From positions 71,088-135,087 of the forward strand of contig JAHYJO010000001.1 of assembly GCA_019429125.1 (NCBI GenBank): 64,000 nucleotides of DNA. Direction: 5' to 3'. Source of the stretch: Nanobdellati archaeon (GTDB taxonomy: Archaea > EX4484-52 > GLR71). A program made the translations under genes and the position numbers. The notes beneath the pieces were generated by a model. That model was not told the DNA's origin. It ran no database searches and was given only the letters and a program-made list of their open reading frames with translations. The first letter of the stretch is position 1; each line of letters starts with the position of its first letter. Positions 23,092-62,216 of the stretch are shown here, one piece after another.

Positions 23092-23141
23092 TAAATTTTA
23101 ATTTAAAGGGGTTTTTATAACTCTCCTTTTTTTCTTTTTTC

Positions 23142-23309
23142 GGCACTGTTCAAAAAGTGAGTTATTTTTAATATTTTTAAAATATTGTTTGTTTATAAAC
23201 TCCGGCAGAAATCCATTTAATATACACATTTTACGTAGAATTACAAAATAAATGAAGGTATTTAATTAACTACATTTTGTTTGAAATCACTCAAAAAATG
23301 AACTGTGCC
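23142..23309. mobile_element. 168-bp MITE, copy 1, with 8-bp target duplication
   Basis: Starts GGCACTGTTCA and ends TGAACTGTGCC, so the termini are inverted repeats with one mismatch in the first eleven bases, and the inner GAGT / ACTC segments extend the pairing. The element is flanked on both sides by CTTTTTTC (23134-23141 and 23310-23317), a perfect 8-bp target-site duplication. It encodes no protein. Two further copies are at 38898 and 61934. The GGCACTGTT end and 8-bp duplication resemble IS6-family elements; no such transposase is in this window. Confidence 0.92.
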
Positions 23310-23460
23310 CTTTTTTCAAAAGATATATAAACTTGTATTGCTATTATTATGTGTGGAACGGTTTTATTTAAACGTTTCATCGGTTATTTTATTGTTCAAT
23401 AAGGTCATTTTGACTTTTTTTTCGATTTATGTTTTTAATTGATAATTATAGGTGATTTAA

Positions 23461-37761: not shown

Positions 37762-38897
37762 TTATTGAATTAATACATTATTATAGGGATAGTCATAATC
37801 ACTTCCAGATATATTTATCTTGTTAATCTCATTCAGGTTGTTAAGTCCATTTATCTTTATTAGGCCATCTGATATGGTATATAGAAAATCACCAATGTAT
37901 AATGATCTTTTTATCGAGTATTTTGAGCCATAATAATACCAGTTGTTATTGTCTATATTTTCATCTTCATCTGAGTGGGTGATTCTGTCTCTTAATTGTA
38001 TGCCGTTATTTGTGTCAATGTTGAATACGTACGCGCCTTGCCATTTATATTCACCATAAGCCCAACTAGGTATTTCATCTTTATATTGACTTTTGTCAAT
38101 TTCAGCTAAAAGTATTGGTATTACAAGCAGGTTTTTTTCTTTGTCAAACAGGAATGCTTTAGGGTCTTGTAGTGCGTATGAATCTGTGCCACGGTCACCT
38201 ATTTCAAATTTAGATATCTCTATTGGGGTATCTATGTATGTCACGTCAAAAAGCGCAATTTTTACTCCTGTATACCATGCAAAGTCGCCAGTTTTTGATG
38301 CTATTGCTTCTTTACCTATTCCGATTATATGATTTTTATCATATGGATGAAGATAGTCTGAGGATCCTGGTATCTTTAATTTTCCTGCGACTGTCGGTTT
38401 TGTTGGGTCTTTAAGGTCTATTACAAATAATGGGTCGACTTTTTTGAATGTGACCATGTATGCTGTGTCACCCATGAACCTTGCTGAGTATATGCTTTCA
38501 CCAGGTGCTAAATCTTCTACTTTTCCTATTATATTCATTTTTTCATCAAGGACATATAGGTTGTTTATTGTAGTGGGTAGGGTTGGTCTTGATTTTACTA
38601 TCTGTGTCGGTGCTATTTTTTGTGCGATTGCTATTGTTGATTCAGTGTTCGTTTGAGTATCTGTTATTGATGATGTGGATGTCATTTCTTGTTGACTATT
38701 AGATACTACAGTTGCAGTATTTAGAATTGCTGGAACCATTGTTCTTGTCTGTGTTCTAATTCCCATACTCACATTATTTACTCTAACAGTGGTTCCTATC
38801 CTGAAATATTCGTTGTGTTCATCTATCGAAAATTGGTTGAGTGGGGTACCAGGAACTTCTCCCGAATCTTCATAGTTTATATTTCCATCCTTTATTC
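37762..38897 (-). pseudogene. beta-propeller domain gene truncated at a MITE (PF09826 type)
   Basis: The frame is open from 38897, where a MITE begins, to the stop at 37762. Reading upstream of the nominal GTG start (38772) still gives family sequence: GEVPGTPLNQFSIDEHNEYF, which matches the GxLNQFSMDEYNGYLRVATT block that lies in the middle of secreted beta-propeller proteins. Downstream follow NLYVLDEKMNIIGKVEDLAP, YSARFMGDTAYMVTFKKVDP and further blades (YLHPYDKNHIIGIGKEA). Complete members have a signal peptide and several hundred more N-terminal residues; between the MITE and tRNA-Leu there are only 70 bp, so that half is gone. Without its export signal the remnant is unlikely to work. 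Confidence 0.78.
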
Positions 38898-39065
38898 TGC
38901 ACTGTTCAAAAAGGGAGTGATTTTAAATATTTTTTAAATATTGTTTGTTTATAAACTCTGGCAGAAAACCCTTTAATATATACATTTCACGCAGAATTAA
39001 AAAAGAAATGAAGGTATTTAATTAACTACATTTTGTTTGAAATCACTCAAAAAATGAACTGTGCC
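38898..39065. mobile_element. 168-bp MITE, copy 2, flanks not duplicated
   Basis: Same orientation and closely similar sequence to copy 1, including the TTGTTTGTTTATAAACT core and the right end TGAACTGTGCC; the first base of the left end is T instead of G. The 8-bp flanks (CTTTATTC on the left, GGTTTTGT on the right) do not match. It marks the exact point where the beta-propeller gene is broken. Confidence 0.88.
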
Positions 39066-61820: not shown

Positions 61821-61933
61821 GAGTTAGCATCTTTTCTTTTTTTTATTTCATTTTTTAGTTTTTTAGTTCTGATTGATTTTAAAAATAGTTTAATCTTTTT
61901 GTATTTATTGTTATTAGGGGGAAGATGATAACC

Positions 61934-62102
61934 GGCACTGTTCATTTTTCGAGTGATTTCAAACAGAATGTAGTTAAATTAAAGACCTTTATTTCTTTTG
62001 TAATTCAACGTGAAATGTGTATATTAAATGGATCTCTGCAGGTGTTTATAAACAAACAATATCTAAAAAATATTCAAAATCACTCACTTTTTGAACAGTG
62101 CC
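61934..62102. mobile_element. 169-bp MITE, copy 3, inverted, with 8-bp target duplication
   Basis: Inverted relative to copies 1 and 2. Both ends are exact on this copy: GGCACTGTTCA at the left and TGAACAGTGCC at the right, extended by GAGTGATTT / AAAATCACTC. The flanks TGATAACC at 61926-61933 and 62103-62110 are identical, an 8-bp target-site duplication. The body aligns by eye with copy 1 throughout, including TTGTTTGTTTATAAAC. No coding capacity. Confidence 0.93.
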
Positions 62103-62216
62103 TGATAACCATTATCTATATATACTCAGTAATGTCAATATATAAAATAGGTAGTTTTTGAGGTATTAATATTTTTGTATTAACCTCATTATCAAAGTAA
62201 TATTGTTGGTGAAATA

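Follow-up and report, generated by a model that had tools for sequence, protein, structure and literature searches.

Three copies of a short repeat in the window

The window, a stretch of 64,000 nucleotides, is part of contig 16 of a 1.16-Mb archaeal genome assembled in 32 contigs and estimated to be 93% complete. It carries three copies of a repeat of 168 to 169 bp, two in direct and one in inverted orientation, with a mean column identity of 93% over 168–169 aligned columns. The following features were recorded at these loci (positions are those of the window).

23134..23141, unstranded, left target-site duplication of MITE copy 1, CTTTTTTC (direct reading and boundary scan)
23142..23309, plus strand, MITE copy 1, 168 bp (direct reading, genome search and alignment)
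23142..23167, plus strand, left terminal inverted repeat of MITE copy 1, outer block GGCACTGTTCA followed by a mutated inner block
23284..23309, minus strand, right terminal inverted repeat of MITE copy 1, GGCACAGTTCATTTTTTGAGTGATTT reading inward
23310..23317, unstranded, right target-site duplication of MITE copy 1, CTTTTTTC (direct reading and boundary scan)
37762..38895, minus strand, truncated beta-propeller gene (PF09826), coding frame continuing into MITE copy 2, profile positions 1–236 absent
38898..39065, plus strand, MITE copy 2, no target duplication, left junction within the truncated gene
61926..61933, unstranded, left target-site duplication of MITE copy 3, TGATAACC (direct reading and boundary scan)
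61934..62102, minus strand, MITE copy 3, inverted, 169 bp (direct reading, genome search and alignment)
62103..62110, unstranded, right target-site duplication of MITE copy 3, TGATAACC (direct reading and boundary scan)

Direct reading bore out what a first-pass annotation had described here, namely three copies of 168–169 bp at these positions, two of them (copies 1 and 3) with perfect 8-bp target duplications. The family consensus is 168 bp long and its ends are bipartite inverted repeats, each consisting of GGCACTGTTCA, five unpaired bases and then TGAGTGATTT. In the consensus, the outer blocks pair at 11 of 11 positions and the inner blocks at 10 of 10 (21 of 26 end bases in total), and the five unmatched bases between them form an A-run on the left and a T-run on the right. 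The element has no long open frame, no ORF of at least 100 amino acids overlaps it within the window, and no Rfam family matches it.

Copy 2 differs from the other two in that its first base is T, versus the usual G, and it has no target duplication. Its left junction lies within a beta-propeller gene (PF09826; 37762–38772) that has lost its 5′ half. The coding frame of this gene continues as far as the edge of the MITE, and its protein, when translated to 38895, spans only profile positions 237–494. Because the junction falls inside a gene that is missing its 5′ half, the lack of a duplication would be accounted for by insertion of the MITE into the beta-propeller gene and a later deletion or rearrangement.

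Copies, insertion sites and age of the family

A search of the genome with the element, the check proposed along with the initial description, returned 37 matches: 29 copies that are complete or almost complete, 3 that are interrupted by other DNA, and end fragments as the remainder; one apparent end fragment (contig 3, L032) is a strongly diverged full-length copy. The family thus numbers about 30 copies, or roughly 0.4% of the assembly. An automatic boundary scan found perfect 8-bp duplications at 18 of the 29 copies, and a 19th (L021) was recognized when the boundary was shifted one base beyond a small terminal deletion; in two further copies, 7 of the 8 duplicated bases match. Given the composition of the flanks, a chance 8-bp match is expected at about 1.2e-4 per copy (about 1 in 8,500). 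A 26-base end pattern was matched 32 times in the genome, versus no match for its reversed control. Insertion appears to have been mostly intergenic, since 27 of 31 reconstructed sites are not crossed by any reading frame of at least 80 codons (the other 4 are), and the orientation of the copies relative to neighboring genes is mixed. The repeats are therefore a MITE family: they are short, non-coding and present in many copies, they have terminal inverted repeats and carry no transposase gene, and their duplications, at 18–19 of 29 copies, are of a constant 8 bp.

Could these repeats instead be dispersed regulatory or RNA elements, such as a structured transcript or a promoter cassette, with no transposon involved? 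The consensus RNA folds better than shuffled sequences (z = -6) and a TATA-like TTTATAAA is present. However, the RNA fold consists mostly of the terminal inverted repeats pairing with each other, copy 1 folded as DNA does not stand out (z = -1.6), and Rfam offers no match. The 8-bp duplications and mixed orientation relative to neighboring genes favor transposition, leaving this alternative with only a very slight probability.

Several loci carry other repeats. Copies at the end of contig 18 (L076), at the start of contig 13 (L028) and on contig 19 (L029) are interrupted by a second repeat with ends GTATTTGTTTAGC. The contig 18 and contig 13 halves have 8 MITE bases in common (ATATTTTT), which suggests a single insertion of the GTATTTGTTTAGC-ended repeat that split the assembly. 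A palindromic repeat, ATCCAGTTAAGG...CTTAACTGGAT, occurs at three or more places in the genome (L024, L022 and L034).

All but three copies lie 1.8–7.7% from the consensus, while the three oldest are 12–25% off. Within the main group, nearest pairs are 1.2–6.5% apart and no two copies are identical. All 16 duplicated bases are intact in about 73% of the main group (26 copies), which would correspond to roughly 2% change per site since insertion. The burst is therefore old enough for the copies to have drifted and young enough for their duplications to be readable. An earlier impression that the family looks active finds no support in these values, with most copies about 2–8% from the consensus, none identical and no intact source in the assembly. 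As for movement having been fairly recent, the duplications can still be read, but the divergence among the copies makes the case weak.

Two genomes of the same genus (G005 and G006) each carry one copy, 75% and 73% identical, respectively, and an 8-bp duplication, TTTTCTGT, flanks the one in G006. When compared with the consensus of the genome studied here, the first 24 bases of these copies are 83–100% alike, versus only 33–42% at positions 61–72; conserved ends and a drifting middle are what recognition by a transposase predicts. The two-block end pattern, written GGCACTGTTCAN{5}TGAGTGATTT, was found 66 times in the genome itself and twice in each of the two congeners, whereas 17 single matches were found outside the genus among 394 relatives, a number close to the 14 for the reversed control. 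As far as searched, sequence matches thus place the family within the genus only. Viral contigs yielded 0 and 0 matches to the end patterns, plus one chance match in a phage-like gene, and no credible end; a plasmid search with a 30-base end returned only weak matches to bacterial records. In the literature, the end sequence led to unrelated papers only, and searching text for MITEs in combination with DPANN archaea turned up no paper on such a family.

Candidate sources of the transposase

The terminal bases and the duplication length had been taken, in the first-pass annotation, to indicate mobilization by an IS6-family transposase, and in these two respects the elements are compatible with that family. 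Members of the IS6 family have GG tips, the motifs cTGTt and caaa, and 8-bp duplications (PMC7986276), and the archaeal IS6-type elements have longer ends of at least 18 bp that lack G10 (PMC6807381), a pattern that the MITE ends match. The left end, GGCACTGTTCAAAA, has GG, cTGTt and caaa, as well as G at position 7, while the right end has CATTTTT where caaa is expected. Within the IS6 family, IS1006 begins GGCACTGTTGCAAATA with an outer tip, GGCACTGTT, that is like the MITE tip, and the tip of IS6100 and ISS1-type elements, GGYTCTGTT, is akin to it. These three continue with GCAAA (GCGAA at one end of a Lactococcus element), whereas the MITE continues with CAAAA or CATTTTT and, unlike them, has a second, inner end block. 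For the IS6 family, two MITEs, of 227 and 336 bp (PMC7986276), as well as MITEBth2 and MITEHarch3 (PMC6807381), have been reported; compared by description only, they are likewise non-coding with GG-tipped inverted ends and expected 8-bp duplications. Relative to IS6-family MITEs, the elements described here differ in their length of 168 bp, in their bipartite ends of about 26 bp, and in that no IS6-type transposase was found.

The last of these differences weighs against an archaeal IS6-type transposase that moved the MITEs and has since been lost from the lineage. An IS6-type gene with matching ends, which the initial description had called for, was searched for and not found: PF13610 (IS6-type transposase) is absent from the genome and, although present in 12 of 394 relatives, it is in none of the same genus or family. 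None of the IS6-like loci fetched from other archaea has GGCACTGTTCA or GGCACTG ends, and the N-terminal frame of the candidate source described below has no Pfam or NCBIfam match. Judged by the tips and the duplication length, an archaeal IS6-like element would be the most natural candidate for the source, and we place it somewhat below even odds. On sequence grounds, the MITEs appear to behave like DNA moved by an IS6-type enzyme, a resemblance that is compatible with, and short of establishing, membership in the family.

No intact transposase-encoding element with the MITE ends was found in the genome, in 33 genomes of the same order or in about 390 archaeal relatives; an intact source may be missing from an assembly that is 93% complete in 32 contigs. 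The first-pass annotation had held that its proposal would fail if no autonomous element shared the end. None that is intact does, and the left end does recur in two longer elements, both decayed, at contig 15 (29205–31073) and contig 21 (47827–48313). These wrecks, here termed element B, have 24 of 24 (L034) and 23 of 24 (L074) left-end bases in common with the MITE. The contig 15 wreck is 1869 bp long, starting GGCACTGTTCAAAAAGTGAGTGAT and ending TGAACAGTGCC, and the contig 21 wreck shares exactly its bases 1–178. In both, an N-terminal frame, MTNIQMCLNNFNGVE(R/L)..SIFPQS(N/D)DFEFT, begins some 90 bases inside the left end and is preserved over 30–54 residues, with one stop, at the Q, in the contig 21 frame. 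Degradation has affected their right ends, which are unlike one another and unlike the inner block of the MITE, and no flanking duplication is visible; for these two reasons element B, the best candidate source, can be assigned that role only with uncertainty.

The preserved frame raises the possibility that the source was a member of an undescribed or unrecognized archaeal IS family whose transposase began with these residues. Both element B wrecks, which carry the left end of the MITE, keep this frame; searches of Pfam, NCBIfam, plasmids and viral contigs left it unmatched, and other archaeal genomes offered nothing convincing. However, the frame amounts to 30–54 decayed residues, and conservation is poor in the N-terminal domains of transposases, so that a missing match says little. 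We consider this origin possible but rather doubtful, a notch behind the IS6-type one. Still more tentative is the fuller version of it, in which such a family, with a GGCACTGTTCA-N5-TGAGTGATTT site and 8-bp duplications, would have become extinct in the lineage after the MITE burst.

Other transposases were rejected as partners. On contig 15, GGCACTGTTCAAAAAGTGAGTGAT and TGAACAGTGCC enclose a decayed, frameshifted IS1634-type transposase, which made an IS1634-family enzyme plausible as the mobilizer at first. The IS1634 part, however, has inverted ends of its own, near bases 181 (AACCTTAACTCTGC) and 1725 (AACCTTAACTTTGC) of the 1869-bp wreck, and its similarity to other IS1634 copies begins at about 182 and fades near 1640. 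The second GGCAC-ended wreck, on contig 21, has only bases 1–178 in common with the contig 15 wreck. No flanking duplication is seen. The separate ends, the limits of similarity and the 178 shared bases together indicate that the IS1634 element is a later intruder nested in the older element B, and these nested boundaries make its role as mobilizer improbable. An IS5-type (NF033581) partner was dismissed in the same manner. A truncated remnant (L027; contig 15, 58866–59385) lies within one MITE copy, but a fuller IS5-type copy on contig 19 (L080; about 50.2–51.2 kb) lacks the MITE ends, which points to another intruder. At the ends of contig 27 (L083 and L085) are an apparently intact IS701-type transposase of 392 amino acids and a second IS1634-type transposase of at least 445 amino acids that runs off the contig. 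Neither has GGCAC ends nearby, and they represent other insertion sequences that may be live.

A probable, largely fossil MITE population

The explanation that we favor, at a probability of about 85%, is that a DDE-type transposase recognizing the bipartite ends of about 26 bp acted in trans to move the MITEs, that its source has decayed or been lost, and that the family is a largely fossil population. It draws on the terminal repeats, the multi-copy spread, the 8-bp duplications, the conserved ends with a diverged middle, and the copies in two congeners. The transposase would have recognized GGCACTGTTCA, 5 nt and TGAGTGATTT as a single terminal inverted repeat and cleaved A+T-rich, mostly intergenic target DNA with an 8-bp stagger; action in trans and DDE chemistry are the probable mode. 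Its source may now survive only as the two element B wrecks with the same left end, and its decay or loss would have left the family largely fossil.

A comparable situation may be that of the MITEs of Haloquadratum walsbyi (PMC3119063), which are likewise archaeal and have only terminal bases in common with a transposon that is broken in all its copies (HqIRS39 / HqIRS12); host and partner are different, and the likeness is drawn from their description. The family described here is an ordinary but clean one, new in sequence, with a transposase source that is decayed or missing, and it leaves the understanding of transposition unchanged. It documents a well-formed MITE family in a small-genome archaeon and provides an example both of copies that have apparently outlived their transposase and of a MITE junction within a truncated gene.
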